Shown here: positions 2,337-26,708 of the stretch, piece after piece
Layout: each line of letters opens with the position of its first letter
Position numbering within the stretch: position 1 is the first letter of the stretch
NCBI GenBank assembly: GCA_021833825.1
Contig: JAKBEL010000017.1
Location: 1-64,000 of the forward strand
From: a bacterium
GTDB taxonomy: Bacteria; Babelota; Babeliae; Babelales; Vermiphilaceae
DNA length: 64,000 nt
Reading direction: 5' to 3'
Notes under the pieces: generated by a model
What the model saw: only the letters and a program-made list of their open reading frames with translations
What the model was told of the DNA's origin: nothing
The model's database searches: none
Made by a program: the position numbers and the translations under genes

Positions 2337-2783
2337 TTATTCCGACACAACATCTTTATACTTTTTATTATACAGATATTCATCAAACGAATAATAGCCT
2401 GGCCCACTTATACATATAGATACAAATATGATCAAAAATATCAACGCTTGTGCATAAATATCAAACTTATCTCCATGATCAAAGTGATACCCAAGAGCAA
2501 CAACCATAACCATACTCATTAATATCGTTGCCAAGCGCGTTGAAAATCCAAATATAAGGCAAAGCCCACCAATAAATTCAACATTTGCAGCAATCAATCC
2601 CCAAACGATTGGAAAAAATGTGATCCCAAAACGGGATAACTGTGAACCTAACCATATCCACGTTTGAGGGCCACCCATCAATTTCATCCACCCATAAATA
2701 GCAAATATAGCCCCAACACCAAGTCGAGTTATTAATAACCCCAATTCCAGAGAGCTTCGATTGGAGACAAAGAACCTGAACAT
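2337..2783 (-). CDS. DoxX family membrane protein
   Basis: A 148-aa protein with four predicted membrane helices and the DoxX pattern: an early RLGVGAIFAIYGWMKL segment, then FIGGLCLIFGFSTRLA. DoxX proteins are small inner-membrane proteins linked to quinone or thiol redox chemistry; the substrate is not known here. The start at 2783 is backed by AAAGGAGAAGG. It lies 18 bases downstream of the VKOR gene on the same strand, so the two probably form an operon with a shared redox role. Confidence 0.8.
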   Translation of the reverse strand: MFRFFVSNRSSLELGLLITRLGVGAIFAIYGWMKLMGGPQTWIWLGSQLSRFGITFFPIVWGLIAANVEFIGGLCLIFGFSTRLATILMSMVMVVALGYHFDHGDKFDIYAQALIFLIIFVSICISGPGYYSFDEYLYNKKYKDVVSE

Positions 2784-2801: not shown

Positions 2802-3200
2802 TTACATATAATAGTAGGTCAAAATAAATAATATCAGATTGATTATATAGGTCGAAATACAGATTAAGCAGAATGTCTTTACCTTTGTAAACAGAATATA
2901 CGCAAAAAAGACCGTTGCTATCATAAAACTAGTAGCCAATAGAAATGCAAGGCAGACCTTTCCAATAAGAGCAACTAAAAACATAGAAACATAGGCAACT
3001 AAACCCAGTTGTATGTTGGAAATACCAAACATACTCCCCCAGGGACTCAAGAAGGTTTTAGTGCAAGAGACATGATCAGATAGATCACAAACAGCCTTAT
3101 AGCTCTTATCTGCCCGAACCTTACGTTCGACGAAAAAACCGTACAGACAGATTAAAAATCCAATAACAGAAACAAACGCTACACTTAGCAACATCATCAC
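2802..3200 (-). CDS. Vitamin K epoxide reductase (VKOR)-like membrane thiol oxidoreductase
   Basis: A 132-aa four-helix membrane protein. It has the two cysteine pairs expected of bacterial VKOR: Cys38/Cys46 in the loop after helix 1 (CDLSDHVSC) and the active CLIC pair Cys111/Cys114. Bacterial VKOR takes over the DsbB role, passing electrons from a periplasmic thioredoxin-like DsbA to quinone and so driving disulfide formation. No DsbA partner is encoded next to it. A cysteine-rich secreted protein at 21.1 kb would be an obvious client, but that link is inference. Confidence 0.82.
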   Translation of the reverse strand: MMMLLSVAFVSVIGFLICLYGFFVERKVRADKSYKAVCDLSDHVSCTKTFLSPWGSMFGISNIQLGLVAYVSMFLVALIGKVCLAFLLATSFMIATVFFAYILFTKVKTFCLICISTYIINLILFILTYYYM

Positions 3201-4615: not shown

Positions 4616-5566
4616 ATGAATGTTAATAACAACATAGTAATCTCCGAACATGTGCCACTTCATGACAAGAACTGGTTTGCCACTGGTGGACCAGCACGAT
4701 ATTTTGCAGCACCCACAACTGCAGAAGAATTACAAGAGGCTCTCGCATTTGCTCAAAAGAGAGATCTTGAACTGTTCATATTGGGCAAAGGAGCAAACAT
4801 TCTGATCAGCGATAATGGCTTTGATGGACTTGTGATTCAGCCACACCTTAAACAGATATCTCTGGACAAAGAGCAGTCCTTGCTCACAGCCGGCTCTGGA
4901 GTGAGCATGAATGATCTCATTAATTATTGCTTAAATCATCACTTGATTGGCCTTGAAGAGTTCAGTGGCATTCCAGGAACCGTTGGTGGATCAGTATTTA
5001 TCAATCTCCATTATTTTAACTTCTTACTTGAACAGTTCATCGTTGAAGCGCGCGTGATTCACAAAAACACATGCGAAATTAAAATTGTAGATCGCTCATG
5101 GTTCCAGTTTGGATACAATTACTCAAGACTACATTCTGAACCATACCTTTTGATTGATGCAACATTTCAATTAAAACCTGCTGATGACCTGATGATTGCC
5201 TACGCACAGGGCCGACGCGATGAAATCATCAGACATCGACAGGCACGTTATCCTACACAAAAGACCTGTGGAAGCTTTTTTAGAAACTTTTTTGATCACG
5301 AAGTAACGCTCGAAGAGAATAATGGAAAGAAGATGATCTATGTGGCCTATTATCTTGATAAATTGGGAATTAAAGGGCAATTACAAGTAGGTGGCGCGAA
5401 AGTCTCTCATCAACATGCAAACATGATTATTAATCTTGGTCACGCAACAAGTAATGATATTCTTGAACTTGCTCGCACCATACAACTACTTGTACAAAAA
5501 AATTATGGCATTATCCCCAAACCTGAATGCCAACTTATTGGATTTAAGGAATATCCTCTTTTATAA
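4616..5566 (+). CDS. murB: UDP-N-acetylenolpyruvoylglucosamine reductase
   Basis: FAD- and NADPH-dependent reduction of UDP-GlcNAc-enolpyruvate to UDP-MurNAc, the second committed step of peptidoglycan synthesis in the cytoplasm. FAD-binding motifs are clear: WFATGGPARYF near 20, LGKGANILISDNGF near 57 and GIPGTVGGSVF near 125. The C-terminal domain holds YPTQKTCGSFFRN (the Ser proton donor lies in GSFF) and the late KPECQLIG motif with the expected glutamate. The length of 316 aa is normal. Its presence, with mraY and lgt, indicates a peptidoglycan-containing envelope. Confidence 0.93.
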   Translation: MNVNNNIVISEHVPLHDKNWFATGGPARYFAAPTTAEELQEALAFAQKRDLELFILGKGANILISDNGFDGLVIQPHLKQISLDKEQSLLTAGSGVSMNDLINYCLNHHLIGLEEFSGIPGTVGGSVFINLHYFNFLLEQFIVEARVIHKNTCEIKIVDRSWFQFGYNYSRLHSEPYLLIDATFQLKPADDLMIAYAQGRRDEIIRHRQARYPTQKTCGSFFRNFFDHEVTLEENNGKKMIYVAYYLDKLGIKGQLQVGGAKVSHQHANMIINLGHATSNDILELARTIQLLVQKNYGIIPKPECQLIGFKEYPLL

Positions 5567-19682: not shown

Positions 19683-20993
19683 TTGAGTATGGAACCTCAA
19701 CTGCAAACATTATGGTATTCGTCAATCTTTTTTTGTATTGCGCTCAGCGTTAGAGGCGTATTCTCATTTCTTGAGACAACCATCACAGCGCTGCGTCTCT
19801 TTAAACTTAAAGAGCTCGAATCAAAAATTGGTAAATATAGACGATTATTTGAAACATTTGAAAAAAATCCTCAACGTATCCTGATTACCATATTAGTAGC
19901 AAATAGCTTAGCCGACGTTACTACTGCGGCACTAGCTGCGCATATGATGGAGACGCTTTTTTCATATTTACATCTATCAGGAGATTTAGGTTTTTCTATA
20001 GGTATACTTCTGGCAACTGTCGCTATTGTTGTCTTTGGCGAAATCATTCCTAAAAATATCGCAAAAGCGCGCGGAGAATATCTTTTTACCTCCACATTAT
20101 GGATTGTACATGGGGTCTACATTCTGCTTTATCCATTAGTATCTATACTATTCTGGTTTTCAGAATTGATCATGGCAATTATTGGAACCAAACAGGATCA
20201 GACCAATGATTGGGTAACCAGCGAAAGCGAAATACGCTTCTTGATTAACTATATTCGCAATATGGGTCTCATGGAGGTTGATAAATCACAAATGCTTCAA
20301 AGTATTTTTGAATTAGCCTCAACTCCAGTTAAAGAGATTATGGTTCCAGCAATGGACATTGTCTCAGTCGATATCAATGCTACTATTCAAGAGACATTGC
20401 AAATCTTTTTGAAAAGAAATTTTACTAGACTCCCTGTCTATAAAGGCAATCATGAAAACATTGTAGGTATAGTTCACCTTAAAGATCTCTTTCATCTGCT
20501 CTCTCAAAATAAAGATCTGCCCTTAAAAGAGCTTTTGCGCCCTATTCTTTTTGTTCCTGAAAGTATGAAAATTAATCAATTACTTAAAGAATTCACCGAA
20601 AAACATCGGCATATGGCTATTGTACTCAATGAACATGGAAGCCTTATTGGTCTGACAACCCTTGAGGACATTCTTGAAGAGATTGTCGGCGAAATAAGCG
20701 ATGAACATGAACCGACCAATGAAAAAATCATTCACTTAAAAGATGATAGTTGGCTTGCCGAAGCAAGCACTCCCCTTGAAGATATAAGCAGACTCCTTAA
20801 CATAAGCTTTGAAGCAGAAAATGTCTTTACATTAGGTGGATTTATTGCTGAACAACTTCAACGCCTACCTACAAAGGGTGAGCGCATTTTATATAAAAAT
20901 TACTATTTTCAAGTACAAAATGCGAGTCCTAAACGTGTTCTTCAGGTGCTCATTTTCAGAGAAAAAAAACCTAATTTGACCACTGAAAACTAG
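19683..20993 (+). CDS. CNNM/CorC-family membrane protein with CBS domains
   Basis: It has an N-terminal DUF21 (CNNM) membrane domain with about four helices. The signature EIIPKNIAKARGE lies near 122. A pair of CBS domains follows (about 215-340, with MVPAMDIV and LTTLEDILEEIVGEI), then a C-terminal CorC/HlyC domain. Relatives are implicated in Mg2+ or Co2+ efflux and are often mislabelled haemolysins. The TTG at 19683 has an AGGA site 4 nt away; ATG 19689, two codons on, is equally possible. Confidence 0.88.
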   Translation: MSMEPQLQTLWYSSIFFCIALSVRGVFSFLETTITALRLFKLKELESKIGKYRRLFETFEKNPQRILITILVANSLADVTTAALAAHMMETLFSYLHLSGDLGFSIGILLATVAIVVFGEIIPKNIAKARGEYLFTSTLWIVHGVYILLYPLVSILFWFSELIMAIIGTKQDQTNDWVTSESEIRFLINYIRNMGLMEVDKSQMLQSIFELASTPVKEIMVPAMDIVSVDINATIQETLQIFLKRNFTRLPVYKGNHENIVGIVHLKDLFHLLSQNKDLPLKELLRPILFVPESMKINQLLKEFTEKHRHMAIVLNEHGSLIGLTTLEDILEEIVGEISDEHEPTNEKIIHLKDDSWLAEASTPLEDISRLLNISFEAENVFTLGGFIAEQLQRLPTKGERILYKNYYFQVQNASPKRVLQVLIFREKKPNLTTEN

Positions 20994-21018: not shown

Positions 21019-21047
21019 TTGCCATTCTTTATGGCCAAAGTTATATT
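21019..21047 (+). promoter_or_regulatory. Sigma-70 promoter of the cysteine-rich protein gene
   Basis: TTGCCA (21019-21024) and TATATT (21042-21047) are spaced exactly 17 bases apart. They lie about 48 bases upstream of the ATG at 21095, which has the strong ribosome site AAAAAGGAG. Confidence 0.55.
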
Positions 21048-21094
21048 GTTGTCTGGAAGTTTTTCATTTTTTAAAGTAAAAAAGGAGTAAGTAG

Positions 21095-22861
21095 ATGAAA
21101 AAACCACACATAAGTTTGTGCGTCCTGTTTTCATGCATATTATTACCACTACATGCCTCATCAGGCCTTGCTGAAGATGCAACACATCAAGCCTCATCTG
21201 AGTCTCGTGATGCAAAAACAAGCCGTATTCTTGCAGGCGTAGGTCGAGTTGTTGAAGGGCTGATCAAAGTGATCAAAGATCCACACAACAAACAGAATGT
21301 TCTTCTTCATGTTGGCGACATGCTCTCTGGAATATTTAGCATTGCAGCAAGCTCACTTCCTAGCCATGAGTTGACCCAAGAGGAGGTTGCAGAGCTTCGC
21401 TCACTATTACAAGACGTTGCTCAATCGGTAGTTCCTCTCCTTCAACATGATTTGACTGAAAGTGCCGCATCTTTACGAGAATATTTACAGACAGTTCCTT
21501 TGGAACATCTCAATGAAATTCCTCTCAATGAATCTTCATCAATAGATAGCTCTAACAATTCTTCTGTGGATGATAATGAAGTAGAACTTCACACAAGCTT
21601 ACTCAACGCCCTTCAGAATCTGATACAGAATCTTTTTGCTATCGTTCAATACCCAGAAGATACCAGGGTGATGGAGCAGAGCATTGCCGATATGTTCAGC
21701 AATATTATCAATGTCGCATCTAAAACATTAAAATATGAATACCTTTCATCAAAAGATGCTGAAGAGACCATTGTTAATTACTTAGATAGCTTTAGCGATG
21801 AACTGACCAAAGAGATTAAGCATTTAATGCTTCAAACAGCTCTTCATCTGCGCGGTAGCAGAGCGTGCGGATCCTGCAATAATTGCTGCTCAAGTAGCTG
21901 CTCTTCATCATCGTGCTGCTCAACAATATGTAGACCATGCTGCAAGCCTTGCAATAATTGCTGCCGAAATATAACTACCGAAGACCAAGTCAGAAGTTGC
22001 TGCAACTGCTCTTCATGCAACTGCACTTCAACAAATCGTGGATGCTGTAATTGCTGCAGCAGTTGTAGCTCAAGCTGCAGATCAGCAGATTCTGAAATTA
22101 ACCGTAAATGCTCATCTTGTGGATGCTCAACAAACAACTGCACTTGCACAAATAGAGCTGAAGATTCAGTTCGCAAATGCTCTACCTGTGGATGTTCAAC
22201 AAATAGCTGCAATAGCTGCACCAACTGTGGCAACAAGACGGCTGCGATCGACGCTCAAAACCCATCACTCCGCTCATGTAATTCATGTGGCAACTCTAGC
22301 AGCTCTAATTGCAAAAACTGCGATTGTAAAAATACAATGCGCCAACAGGTGAGCTTGCGCAAATGCACCTCTTGCAACTGCACAACTAATAACGGCACGT
22401 GCAATACGTGTGGCTGCAAAACAGTTCCAATAAAAACATTCTTAAAATATACACAGTCTGGAAACAATTATCTTGAATCAGCCTCTGAAGACTATTTAAA
22501 ATGTGGCTGCAGCAAACCTAAACCACAGCAACAGGTCACTCGCAATGAGAAGATCTGCTCAAAATGTGGATGCTCTAACAAGCCTAATGGCAATGGACAA
22601 GTAAGATGCGGTTGCAATAAACCAAAACCTCAACAGAGCACAACCCGTGACCTAAAATGTGGGTGCAGCAAACCTAAACCGCAACAAGGCCCAACACGTA
22701 CTGCAAAATGTGGGTGCAATAAACCTAAGCCTCAACAACAGATCACTCGCAATAAAAATATCTGCTCAAAATGTGGATGCTCTAACAAACCTAATCGTCC
22801 TGGCGGAGAAGCCCGATGTGGTTGCTATAATAACAATAAGCCTAAAGCAGAAGAACAGTAA
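21095..22861 (+). CDS. Secreted cysteine-rich repeat protein
   Basis: No family recognised. A signal peptide (MKKPHISLCVLFSCILLPLHASS) is followed by a helical domain of about 230 residues. From about residue 258 the composition changes: roughly 60 cysteines in 330 residues, first in CSSC/CNNCC runs, then in CGCS units. Near the C-terminus are four CGC(S/N)KPKPQQ repeats and two ICSKCGCSNKPN repeats. This could be a disulfide-locked surface or cyst-wall-type layer, or a metal-binding protein. It has its own promoter and terminator. Codon-level low complexity produces long spurious ORFs in other frames. Confidence 0.75.
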   Translation: MKKPHISLCVLFSCILLPLHASSGLAEDATHQASSESRDAKTSRILAGVGRVVEGLIKVIKDPHNKQNVLLHVGDMLSGIFSIAASSLPSHELTQEEVAELRSLLQDVAQSVVPLLQHDLTESAASLREYLQTVPLEHLNEIPLNESSSIDSSNNSSVDDNEVELHTSLLNALQNLIQNLFAIVQYPEDTRVMEQSIADMFSNIINVASKTLKYEYLSSKDAEETIVNYLDSFSDELTKEIKHLMLQTALHLRGSRACGSCNNCCSSSCSSSSCCSTICRPCCKPCNNCCRNITTEDQVRSCCNCSSCNCTSTNRGCCNCCSSCSSSCRSADSEINRKCSSCGCSTNNCTCTNRAEDSVRKCSTCGCSTNSCNSCTNCGNKTAAIDAQNPSLRSCNSCGNSSSSNCKNCDCKNTMRQQVSLRKCTSCNCTTNNGTCNTCGCKTVPIKTFLKYTQSGNNYLESASEDYLKCGCSKPKPQQQVTRNEKICSKCGCSNKPNGNGQVRCGCNKPKPQQSTTRDLKCGCSKPKPQQGPTRTAKCGCNKPKPQQQITRNKNICSKCGCSNKPNRPGGEARCGCYNNNKPKAEEQ

Positions 22862-22888: not shown

Positions 22889-22918
22889 CGGGGAGACTTT
22901 TGAGCCTCCCTTTTTTAT
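22889..22918 (+). terminator. Rho-independent terminator of the cysteine-rich gene
   Basis: GGGGAGAC ... GCCTCCC stem followed by TTTTTTATTTT, starting 28 bases after the stop codon. Confidence 0.65.
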
Positions 22919-23047: not shown

Positions 23048-23173
23048 ATGAAGAAAAATGTAATGACAGCAACTTTGTTAATAGTTCTTTGTTCAGCTTT
23101 AAAACTCTGTTCTTTTGTTGCTCTATGCAAATATAGCAAACCTCATATAACCTGTCTTTTGCACATGAGATAA
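23048..23173 (+). CDS. 41-residue exported peptide or gene remnant
   Basis: ATG 23048 has AAGGA seven bases upstream. The product begins MKKNVMTATLLIVLCSALKLCS, a good signal-peptide shape, and ends after a short tail containing three further cysteines. It may be a genuine small secreted peptide or the stump of a decayed exported gene. It lies alone between the cysteine-rich gene and the ABC-F gene. Confidence 0.35.
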   Translation: MKKNVMTATLLIVLCSALKLCSFVALCKYSKPHITCLLHMR

Positions 23174-23279
23174 GACCGGTACTCTTTTTTATCAAAATGG
23201 TTTATAATTGAAGATATAGAGAAAACATACTTAATCATAATGATCTTTCTATTCATTCAATTATTAAGGCAACATAACT

Positions 23280-25130
23280 ATGATCCATATCAAAAATCTC
23301 CTATTGTCATTCGGCTCCCAGACCATATTTGATAATATCTCCTTAAATATCAATCAAAACGCCCGTATTGGCCTTGTAGGAAGAAATGGATCGGGTAAAT
23401 CAACATTACTTAAAGTGATCGGCAAACAACAACCTATTGATGGCGGAACCATATCTATTCTACCAGGTAAACGAATCGCCTATATGCCACAAGAGGTGGT
23501 TCTACTTTCAAACAAAACCATTTTGCAAGAGACTATGCAGGCGATTGCAGATATTAGCTCACTCAAAGATCGACTAACCTTCTTAGAGAGCAAAATAGAA
23601 CAGGGTGAGACCGATGAGGATACTGTTGAAGAATATGTAGAACTCCTTGAAAAGATGAGCGAACTTGAGCCAGAACAGTTACAAGCTCAGGCAGAACGTA
23701 TTCTGCTTGGATTAGGATTTAAAGAACAGCAACTAGAGCAACCGGTCAGCACCCTAAGTGTCGGCTGGAAAATGCGGATTGTTCTTGCAAAACTACTTCT
23801 TCAAAAGGCTGATTTCTATCTTTTTGACGAACCAACGAACCATTTGGATATCGTCGCTAAAGATTGGTTTATTAACTTCTTACAAAACTCAAATTTTGGT
23901 TTTCTTCTTGTCTGCCATGAACGGTATTTTCTTGATAAATTATGCACCAGCATTGTAGCTCTTGAACTGGGCGACGCCAAAGTTTATAACGGCAACTATA
24001 GTGCATTTGAAGTTCAATATGAGAGCGATATGGAGCAACTGCAGTCAGCTTATGCACAGCAGCAAAAAGAGATCAAACAGAAAATTGAGACCATCGAGCG
24101 ATATAAAGCAAAAGCAAGTAAAGCCAAAATGGCAAAGAGCATGCAAAGAAAGCTTGAAAATGTAGAACTAATATCACTACCGCCAGCACCTAAACAGGTA
24201 CATTTTCATTTTCCTGAAGTCAAACGTTCGGGGCGCATTGTGCTTGATGTTCATAAAGTTGCACATCGATTTGAAGATAAAAAACTGTTTGATAATGTTA
24301 ACCTCAAAATAGAGCGCGGGCAACGGGTTGCATTAGTTGCTGCAAATGGTGTGGGTAAAACAACGCTCTTTAATTTGATTGTTGGTAACTTACCGCTGCA
24401 ACATGGCTCGATAGAGTTCGGCCAGAATGTTGATTATACCATCTTTGCACAGGACCAAAACCAGTCGCTCGATCTTGATAAAAACATTTTTGAAAATGCA
24501 CAGAGCCGCTGCTCAAAGAAAAGCGAGCAACAAATTCGGTCATTCTTGGGAGCTTTTTTATTTAACGGTGATGACATCAAGAAAAAGATTAAAGTTCTTT
24601 CTGGGGGCGAAAAAAACCGCGTGGCGATGGCAATCGTCCTTATGCAGGACAGCAATTTCTTACTTCTTGACGAACCGACCAACCATCTTGATATGCCATC
24701 TAAAGAGACGCTTATTCGCGCACTCAAAGAGTTTCAAGGAACCATTCTATTTGTTTCTCACGATCATACATTCATCAATGAGCTGGCCAATATCGTAGTT
24801 GAACTGACTCCTCATGGCGCATTCAGCTATGAAGGCAACTATGATGCTTACCTGCATCAAAAAAATGAAGCTTTAGCAGGACAGCAAACTGTAACTGTTA
24901 AACCGACAGAATCAAAAAAAGAGAGCAAAAAAGAGGATGACCCTCAAAAAGATCTGCGCCTTCTTGAACAGAAAATTGCAAAATGCGAAAAAGAGTTAGC
25001 CAGGATTCAAGGCTCATTTGAAGATGTTGAATATGGCACTCCTGCATTCAAGCAGGTTGAGCAGAAATTATTGAAAAAACAGGCAGAACTTGATGCGTTA
25101 ACTGCTGAGTGGGAAGCAGCACAGGATTAA
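23280..25130 (+). CDS. ABC-F family ATP-binding cassette protein
   Basis: Soluble protein with two ABC domains and no membrane part, as in ribosome-acting ABC-F factors (Uup/EttA type). Walker A motifs are GRNGSGKST (residue 37) and ANGVGKTT (near 358). Signature motifs are LSVGWKMR and LSGGEKNR, and both Walker B motifs read FDEPTNHLD or LDEPTNHLD. The first signature has Val where Gly is usual. The Lys/Glu-rich interdomain linker (about 245-290) and the C-terminal coiled coil (about 550-616) match the Uup-like subgroup. Confidence 0.9.
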   Translation: MIHIKNLLLSFGSQTIFDNISLNINQNARIGLVGRNGSGKSTLLKVIGKQQPIDGGTISILPGKRIAYMPQEVVLLSNKTILQETMQAIADISSLKDRLTFLESKIEQGETDEDTVEEYVELLEKMSELEPEQLQAQAERILLGLGFKEQQLEQPVSTLSVGWKMRIVLAKLLLQKADFYLFDEPTNHLDIVAKDWFINFLQNSNFGFLLVCHERYFLDKLCTSIVALELGDAKVYNGNYSAFEVQYESDMEQLQSAYAQQQKEIKQKIETIERYKAKASKAKMAKSMQRKLENVELISLPPAPKQVHFHFPEVKRSGRIVLDVHKVAHRFEDKKLFDNVNLKIERGQRVALVAANGVGKTTLFNLIVGNLPLQHGSIEFGQNVDYTIFAQDQNQSLDLDKNIFENAQSRCSKKSEQQIRSFLGAFLFNGDDIKKKIKVLSGGEKNRVAMAIVLMQDSNFLLLDEPTNHLDMPSKETLIRALKEFQGTILFVSHDHTFINELANIVVELTPHGAFSYEGNYDAYLHQKNEALAGQQTVTVKPTESKKESKKEDDPQKDLRLLEQKIAKCEKELARIQGSFEDVEYGTPAFKQVEQKLLKKQAELDALTAEWEAAQD

Positions 25131-26062
25131 TACTTTAGGCTTTCCAACTCTTTACCAACCCTCTTAACCGATTTTGCATACTGATCAATATCCTCCCATG
25201 GATCACCAATACGTGAAATTCGTTTGAAGATATTTGATAGATTATATTTCTGTGGAGTCAAGGAACTATTGACCTCTTTCCATCCAAGTGGTGTTGCAAT
25301 AGGAGCCTTTTCACGCGCTCTCATTGCATACGGAGCAACAGCAGTCTGCGCCCATGCATTGCGCAGATAATCAACAAAGATCTTTCCTTTTCTTTTTTCT
25401 TTGCGGACTTCTAATGTTAACAGTTTTGGATACTGTTTGACCATTACTGCAGCAATATCACGCGCAATCTGGCGCACATCATCAAAGAGCAGTTCGCGCT
25501 TGATAGGAATATTAACATGCAATCCACGTGAACCGGTTGTCATAACAAAAGGAGCCAACCCTAACTCTTCAAGAAATGCTTTAAACAGTTTTGCCGCTTT
25601 GCACACTTGACTGAAATCTTTTCCCGATGGGTCAAAATCAAAAATAATGCGGTCAGGATAGTTCAATCTGTTAACGGTACTCAACCAGATATGTGGTGTT
25701 ATGACCGCCTGACTTGCAAGATACACTAAAGTTGCTGCATCATTGCATAACACGTGTGAGACCACTTTTGATGTATCACCCTTTTCCACTTCTACTCGCT
25801 TTATCCATGACGGGAAATAATCTGATGCATCTTTCTGGAAAAATCCTTCATGGCCGATCCCTTCTGGAAATCGCTGCATGCTGATCGGTCTGTTTTTAAG
25901 GTGCGGAACCATAACCGGTGCGATTCGCTGATAATACTCAACCATCTCTAGCTTCGTGATTCCCGACTTGGGAAACAGTATTTTATCTGGATTAGTAATA
26001 ATTATAGCACGTTTGCCAACATGCAACATCGTATCATTCATAGACTTTTGATTTCTTATCAT
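25127..26062 (-). CDS. LigD-type DNA polymerase/primase domain protein
   Basis: Stand-alone archaeo-eukaryotic-primase-type polymerase of the bacterial end-joining system. It fills gaps and adds nucleotides, often ribonucleotides, at DNA breaks. Visible motifs include ITNPDKILFPKSGITK, the metal-binding FDFDPS, TTGSRGLHVNIPI and the late APYAMRAREKAPIATPLGW. The length of 311 aa equals one domain; no ligase domain is fused. The start overlaps the phosphoesterase gene by 29 bases, so they are co-expressed. ATG 26041 is an alternative start. It ends convergently with the ABC-F gene (4-base overlap). Confidence 0.9.
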   Translation of the reverse strand: MIRNQKSMNDTMLHVGKRAIIITNPDKILFPKSGITKLEMVEYYQRIAPVMVPHLKNRPISMQRFPEGIGHEGFFQKDASDYFPSWIKRVEVEKGDTSKVVSHVLCNDAATLVYLASQAVITPHIWLSTVNRLNYPDRIIFDFDPSGKDFSQVCKAAKLFKAFLEELGLAPFVMTTGSRGLHVNIPIKRELLFDDVRQIARDIAAVMVKQYPKLLTLEVRKEKRKGKIFVDYLRNAWAQTAVAPYAMRAREKAPIATPLGWKEVNSSLTPQKYNLSNIFKRISRIGDPWEDIDQYAKSVKRVGKELESLKY

Positions 26063-26708
26063 CTTTAATTTGCTTCATGGTTCTATCGGTCAAAGCGGAA
26101 CGTTTTTGACTAGATACTGGATTTTTCTTTGCGCTTGCAAACTCATCCTTCATCTTGATCATCAACCAGTTCTTTTTAGAACCGGCATAATGAGTACGAA
26201 CAAACGCAAAAGCACCCTCTAATTTTTTCCCTTTTAGCTCAACCTCAATCTGACCCTGCTTGAGGCACTCTTGCATCGATTCATCTTTTATATTTTTATA
26301 GGTACCAATATCCCAGACCATCACCGTGCCAGCACCATAGCCCTCTTTAATGATTCCTTCAAAATCTGCATAATCGATGGGATGATCTTCTGTCTGCACC
26401 GCTAATCGTTTCACTCGCGGATTAAGTGATGGCCCTTTTGGCACCGCCCATGAGACCAGTACGTCACCAATTTGCAAACGAACATCATAATGCAAATGGC
26501 TCGCTTGATGCTCTTGAATAACAAATATCGGTTTTTTACGCGAACTTAATCTTTTTTTAATAGTTTTGCCACTCGGCTCAGGGGTTTTGGTGAAATCACG
26601 CTTAGAGCGATAGGTTGAAAGAGCCTCTCTCTTTTGTGCCATAAGATAACCTTCAGATCCCAATGCTATAGTAAGCATGAGCAGGGTTTTTATATGTTCC
26701 ATTTTCAT
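26034..26708 (-). CDS. LigD-type 3'-phosphoesterase domain protein
   Basis: Trims 3'-phosphates and ribonucleotides at DNA ends in LigD systems. Conserved residues are present: KRDFTKTPEPSG, then QEHQASHLHYDVRL (His/His/Asp metal site), SWAVPKGPS and EGYGAGTVMVWD. The catalytic family normally starts near ALSTYRSKRDF. ATG 26642 (GAAGG 6-7 nt upstream) would start MAQKREALST; the longer frame from 26708 adds a hydrophobic KTLLMLTIALGS segment resembling a signal peptide but lacks a good ribosome site. The shorter form is more likely for a DNA-repair enzyme. Confidence 0.85.
   Translation of the reverse strand: MKMEHIKTLLMLTIALGSEGYLMAQKREALSTYRSKRDFTKTPEPSGKTIKKRLSSRKKPIFVIQEHQASHLHYDVRLQIGDVLVSWAVPKGPSLNPRVKRLAVQTEDHPIDYADFEGIIKEGYGAGTVMVWDIGTYKNIKDESMQECLKQGQIEVELKGKKLEGAFAFVRTHYAGSKKNWLMIKMKDEFASAKKNPVSSQKRSALTDRTMKQIKDDKKSKVYE

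Follow-up and report, generated by a model that had tools for sequence, protein, structure and literature searches.

Cysteine-tailed exported protein of a Dependentiae bacterium: a candidate disulfide-cross-linked envelope scaffold

The Dependentiae, which occur widely, live as obligate parasites of protists. Their particles are small and long-lived outside the host, with dark periplasmic material, as described for Chromulinavorax, and they can stay infectious for years outside the host (PMC6561590). In the infectious form of Chlamydia, disulfide cross-linking of envelope proteins, OmcA and OmcB included, is critical (PMC6752827), and the membrane enzyme VKOR of bacteria recharges DsbA-type oxidases in DsbB's stead (PMC11208910). 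The window, by which we mean the whole stretch of 64,000 nucleotides analysed here, comes from the 1.23-Mb genome of a Dependentiae (Babeliales) bacterium (G000) and encodes an exported protein with a C-terminal tail packed with cysteine; a literature search returned no description of such a Cys-tail protein in Dependentiae. From its sequence features we consider, with a probability of about 0.5, that this protein is a disulfide-cross-linked envelope scaffold, resembling OmcB in action and not by homology. The locus is laid out as follows.

19683 to 20993, plus strand: CNNM/CorC-type transporter gene (CNNM, CBS and CorC_HlyC, by Pfam)
21083 to 21087, plus strand: ribosome-binding site AGGAG, read from the sequence
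21095 to 22861, plus strand: Cys-tail protein gene, ATG start, 588 amino acids, single open frame
21095 to 21157, plus strand: signal peptide MKKPHISLCVLFSCILLPLHA, type I, without lipobox, read by eye
21191 to 21472, plus strand: first copy of the order-specific predicted helical domain (profile E 8.8e-25; the profile includes this copy)
21569 to 21850, plus strand: second copy of that domain (profile E 2.3e-25; the profile includes this copy)
21860 to 22858, plus strand: Cys-rich basic tail, about 333 amino acids with 62 cysteines and no histidine, by composition count
21866 to 22417, plus strand: first part of the tail, with CC, CxC and CxxC runs, from the sequence
22496 to 22858, plus strand: second part of the tail, with CGC(S/N)KPKPQQ and ICSKCGCSNKPN repeats, from the sequence and DNA repeats
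22890 to 22911, plus strand: terminator-like hairpin followed by T-rich sequence (-9.5 kcal/mol, z -1.84)

Across 21095-22861 only the frame of the gene is open, the five remaining frames carrying 16-62 stops each. A frameshift in the low-complexity region, raised as a concern with the original prediction, is not found: the frame is intact and orthologues with cysteine tails occur in three other assemblies, on which ground a sequencing artefact was also rejected. The signal peptide has LHA at residues 19-21, and no membrane or wall anchor was identified in the protein. The promoter once assigned to the gene is weak and lacks statistical support, seven promoter-like sites occurring against 6.8 expected, which is chance level, although a 10/12 match lies at 21019-21047. 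The terminator fared better, in that a hairpin and T-rich stretch are present and plausible; the signal is weak, 12 of 200 shuffled sequences folding equally well, and is missing from a consensus scan. A small open reading frame at 23049-23174 on the plus strand (MKKNVMTATLLIVLCSALKLCSFVAL...) has a similar, identically placed counterpart in G001 (L002, about 3710) and appears to encode a conserved small membrane protein. Elsewhere in the window, the LigD primase-polymerase and LigD phosphoesterase are encoded by separate, overlapping genes (25127-26708, minus strand). The lineage also retains at least one peptidoglycan-synthesis gene, MurB (4616-5566, plus strand), in contrast with Babela massiliensis, in which the murein pathway is reported absent (PMC4378268).

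The anatomy originally described, with a signal peptide, helical N-terminal half, cysteine runs and repeats, is present in full, and the count of four CGC(S/N)KPKPQQ and two ICSKCGCSNKPN repeats is correct for the tail (4 KPKP motifs). The protein has 64 cysteines, of which 62 lie within residues 256-588 (18.6%); against a background of 1.6%, the mean cysteine fraction of the window's other open reading frames of at least 130 amino acids, the chance of at least 62 cysteines in 333 residues is about 4e-45. The tail has 48 lysines and arginines, 16 aspartates and glutamates, and almost no aromatic residues. Its growth by repeat duplication, which had been suggested earlier, is supported by the DNA, where a 51-nt unit occurs four times and a 91-nt unit twice at 88% identity; between the two 91-nt copies 9 of 30 codons differ, 5 of them silently and none at a cysteine. 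No second Cys-rich gene was evident in the window's own genome among the matches listed for the DNA pattern CxCxxCxC, and a search of a plasmid collection gave no match.

Searches of the whole protein, the tail and the N-terminal domain against Pfam, NCBIfam and PDB sequences returned nothing credible. At E<=0.1 the whole protein matched only MIP-T3_C in Pfam, which is irrelevant, and not Chlam_OMP6 (PF03504); the tails of the window protein and of its orthologues in G001, G002 and G007 had no Pfam match at E<=1, PF03504 and keratin-associated families included; and the metallothionein families of Pfam and NCBIfam matched neither the window protein nor its tail. When PF03504 was searched across the order, no positive control responded, which makes that search uninformative.

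By profile comparison, the N-terminal half is built from an approximately 85-residue, predicted helical domain present twice, which is described here for the first time and has no relative in Pfam, NCBIfam or PDB sequences. An independent profile, built only from short single-domain orthologues, finds two matches, at residues ~43-117 (E 4.8e-14) and 169-250 (E 1.6e-10), and profiles of the two copies match each other with a probability of 96%; together these matches point to a tandem duplication. The original prediction recognised the helical domain; out of its sight were the duplication, the membership of an order-wide, usually Cys-poor family linked to CNNM genes, and the addition of the tail in a single clade. 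AlphaFold2 models the domain of a single-copy orthologue as three helices (pLDDT ~93), and the two-copy N-terminal model of the window protein is all-helical at low confidence (mean pLDDT 52.5). A fold search with a single-domain model (pLDDT 80) gave a best Foldseek E of 0.19 and generic helical matches only, complex I subunits among them, and the best Z of 8.3 is inside the range noted for chance helical matches. The N-terminal half is under purifying selection (dN/dS 0.13-0.18, with dS between species near saturation).

The phylum guess of the original prediction is supported, and the homologues among Dependentiae that it had proposed to look for were found: by profile search 35 of the order's 101 genomes contain the domain, whereas the 273 genomes searched outside the order contain none. 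Most orthologues read are ~130-160 amino acids long, with a single domain and few or no cysteines. A longer form of 200-260 amino acids, also without a Cys tail, occurs in G003, G014, G020 and G026 and probably contains two domain copies, the first too diverged for a profile match. Of the 23 loci read, 22 have a CNNM/CorC-type gene upstream in the same orientation, adjoining in 20 and with one open reading frame between in 2 (L006, L036); L024 is the sole locus of the 23 without this linkage. The CNNM label by Pfam applies to the window gene, to which the genes of the other loci align along their length. Downstream genes vary, and by eye include a lysozyme-like frame (L011, L033), an SPFH-like frame near L026 and a PurA-like frame (L030), so that the CNNM linkage exceeds general synteny. 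To judge from these loci, the members of this newly described family are normally small, Cys-poor exported proteins encoded beside a CNNM/CorC transporter gene. The window protein belongs to the family, its domain copies being matched by the profile of the other orthologues and its CNNM gene lying at 19683-20993.

The C-terminal Cys tail occurs only in the window species (G000), its congeners G001 and G002 ('Candidatus Dependentiae bacterium OFTM133', contig L057), and a member of another genus, G007 ('Candidatus Babeliales bacterium SW_55', contig L058). These four carriers group as one clade (support 99/98) when the tree is built from the CNNM proteins encoded next to the family genes, and comparison with relatives shows the tail to be an addition made once, on a single branch, to an older exported protein, an origin that is also new here. 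Some of the evidence comes from metagenome assemblies, one of which (G001) is gapped within the tail, where a single open frame continues past the gap. The tail of G002 has 440 residues and 91 cysteines, and that of G007 has 187 residues and 26 cysteines. Repeats differ by species, with KPKPQQ units in the window and CCKTS units in G001 and G002, and a CGC-KPKP-like unit near the C-terminus is common to species within the window's genus. Across species the tail repeats are wholly different, while cysteine density and tail position are kept, cysteine making up 14-21% of the three complete tails (G000, G002, G007).

Two other Cys-rich genes of the order were seen. In G013 (L009:982-1740), a genome without VKOR, the helical domain of the orthologue is preceded by a segment rich in Cys, His, Asp and Glu, and this may be an independent metal-binding version. 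In another family of the order, G043 (L007:1507-1701) encodes an unrelated 64-residue exported protein with three CNCGKPKPK units, near a gene named by eye as an ArsM-like methyltransferase; the CxC-KPKP unit therefore exists on its own.

The window also encodes the following pair of membrane proteins.

2802 to 3200, minus strand: VKOR, a membrane disulfide-forming oxidase with CX7C and CXXC pairs and the proposed oxidant of the pathway, by profile and cysteine pairs
2337 to 2783, minus strand: DoxX-family membrane protein adjoining VKOR, of uncertain relevance, by family match

The VKOR match scores 84.8 bits against a cut-off of 27.5 and retains both redox cysteine pairs (CDLSDHVSC and CLIC). 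The same genome encodes, in tandem, two exported proteins of thioredoxin fold (WCPPC and WCGPC), one of them a lipoprotein, and the DsbA-like Thioredoxin_4 family had no match in it. VKOR is present in 4 of 4 tail carriers versus 23 of the 101 genomes of the order, giving a naive probability of 0.002, or 0.03 within the family. Since the carriers go back to one origin and do not count as independent cases, the association of VKOR with the tail amounts essentially to a single event, and there are VKOR-bearing genomes that have no Cys tail. In all four carriers VKOR and the tail gene share a contig, within ~18-31 kb of each other; nine members of the same family that lack the tail (G003, G008, G009, G012, G014, G019, G020, G022, G028) have VKOR and the domain gene on separate contigs, of which some are short. 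As a separate observation, the species with the longest tail, G002, has a tandem pair of VKOR genes (C11:75468-76266).

Exported, Cys-packed, basic and His-free repeat tails, together with an export-side disulfide pathway, make envelope cross-linking material the best explanation. The idea of OmcB-like cross-linking is strengthened by the VKOR of the window, the two exported thioredoxin-fold proteins and the confinement of C-terminal tails to VKOR-bearing genomes. We infer the location, disulfide state, cross-linking and infectious-stage link of the protein as follows. The protein would leave the cytoplasm via Sec, and its two-copy helical domain would keep it where its small relatives are presumed to be, in the periplasm or at the outer membrane. 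The long, flexible tail would then be oxidised by the VKOR and exported-thioredoxin pathway, forming disulfides within and between molecules, with the Lys-Pro-rich CGC(S/N)KPKPQQ units serving as extended spacers with paired cross-linking points. The envelope would thereby be hardened by a covalent mesh, similar to keratin or OmcB, that would be most useful in the dormant extracellular particle. As only cysteine density and length would count, the tail could lengthen or shorten through repeat duplication.

The sole neighbour kept in evolution, CNNM, favours metal handling as much as envelope mechanics, and with the G013 variant it makes metal binding the strongest rival, albeit one that we regard as unlikely. 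The tail would then act as metallothioneins do, as an exported sponge that takes up Zn, Cu, Cd or As in metal-thiolate form in the periplasm, and it might feed or guard the CNNM/CorC transporter encoded next to it. The CxC and CxxC spacing and few aromatics suit metal-thiolate clusters, the CNNM gene is adjacent or near in nearly all loci read, the orthologue in the VKOR-less G013 has its Cys/His/Asp/Glu-rich segment on the other side of the domain, and the unrelated G043 protein is encoded near an ArsM-like methyltransferase gene. Against such a role, the compartment to which the tail is exported has an oxidising enzyme, so that oxidation of its thiols is to be expected, histidine is absent from the window tail and acidic residues are few, and the protein is much longer than metallothioneins and matches none of their families. 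It seems improbable that the protein is instead a secreted or surface factor aimed at the protist host, in which its disulfide-knotted tail would resist proteases and act as an adhesin or effector. Fast-changing, repeat-built tails do resemble host-interaction proteins, Dependentiae export many uncharacterised proteins (PMC6561590), and Babela massiliensis has a 7-member family of large secreted proteins with Cys-rich N-termini (PMC4378268); yet beyond Sec there is no known secretion signal, regular domains of the EGF or LDL-receptor type are absent from the tail, which Pfam does not match, and the core family is order-wide, mostly Cys-poor and linked to a CNNM gene of housekeeping type. Rapid repeat turnover and a tail sequence unconserved across species might suggest a neutral low-complexity extension, grown by slippage and serving no specific function; this is highly improbable given a frame that remains open for 187-440 codons in three species and, in the gapped fourth, throughout the sequenced part, the steady cysteine content of the complete tails though their repeats differ, and a diverged 91-nt repeat pair in which every cysteine codon is spared.

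More tentatively, the envelope-scaffold reading may be extended: one Dependentiae lineage could have independently evolved a chlamydia-like disulfide-hardened infectious particle, by placing a fast-evolving keratin-like tail on an ancient phylum-specific exported domain and using a nearby-encoded VKOR pathway as oxidant. If true, a disulfide coat arising apart from Chlamydiae would be a clear convergence among intracellular bacteria and would bear on the protection of the Dependentiae particle, and the cross-linking reading would give an order-wide exported domain family its first function.

Among known systems, metallothioneins (bacterial SmtA, animal MT) are short cytosolic proteins that share with the tail CxC and CxxC spacing, few aromatics and richness in lysine and serine, whereas the window protein has 588 residues and a signal peptide and is without a family match. 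Mammalian keratin-associated (high-sulfur) proteins are cross-linked by disulfides, and by eye their CC and CxxC repeats resemble CCKTSCCKTS, CKPCC and CRPCCKPC in G000-G002; they belong to another kingdom, whereas the window protein is bacterial, exported and without a Pfam match, so that the likeness is compositional convergence only. OmcB has a cysteine density far below that of the window tail. The secreted family of Babela massiliensis is likewise Cys-rich and from Dependentiae, and differs, by its description, in having an LDL-receptor-like Cys-rich N-terminus and a C-terminal beta-barrel in place of a helical N-terminus and a C-terminal Cys tail (PMC4378268). From OmcB and OmcA the window protein differs in that its cysteines lie in a repetitive tail, its N-terminal domain is unrelated, it has no family match, PF03504 included, and its tail is confined to one lineage of the phylum, cross-linking being here a proposal from genes. 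Like them, it is Cys-rich and exported (by a signal peptide read by eye), and its bacterium lives obligately inside cells, passes through an infective stage outside them and encodes a disulfide-forming membrane enzyme, DsbB in Chlamydia and VKOR here.
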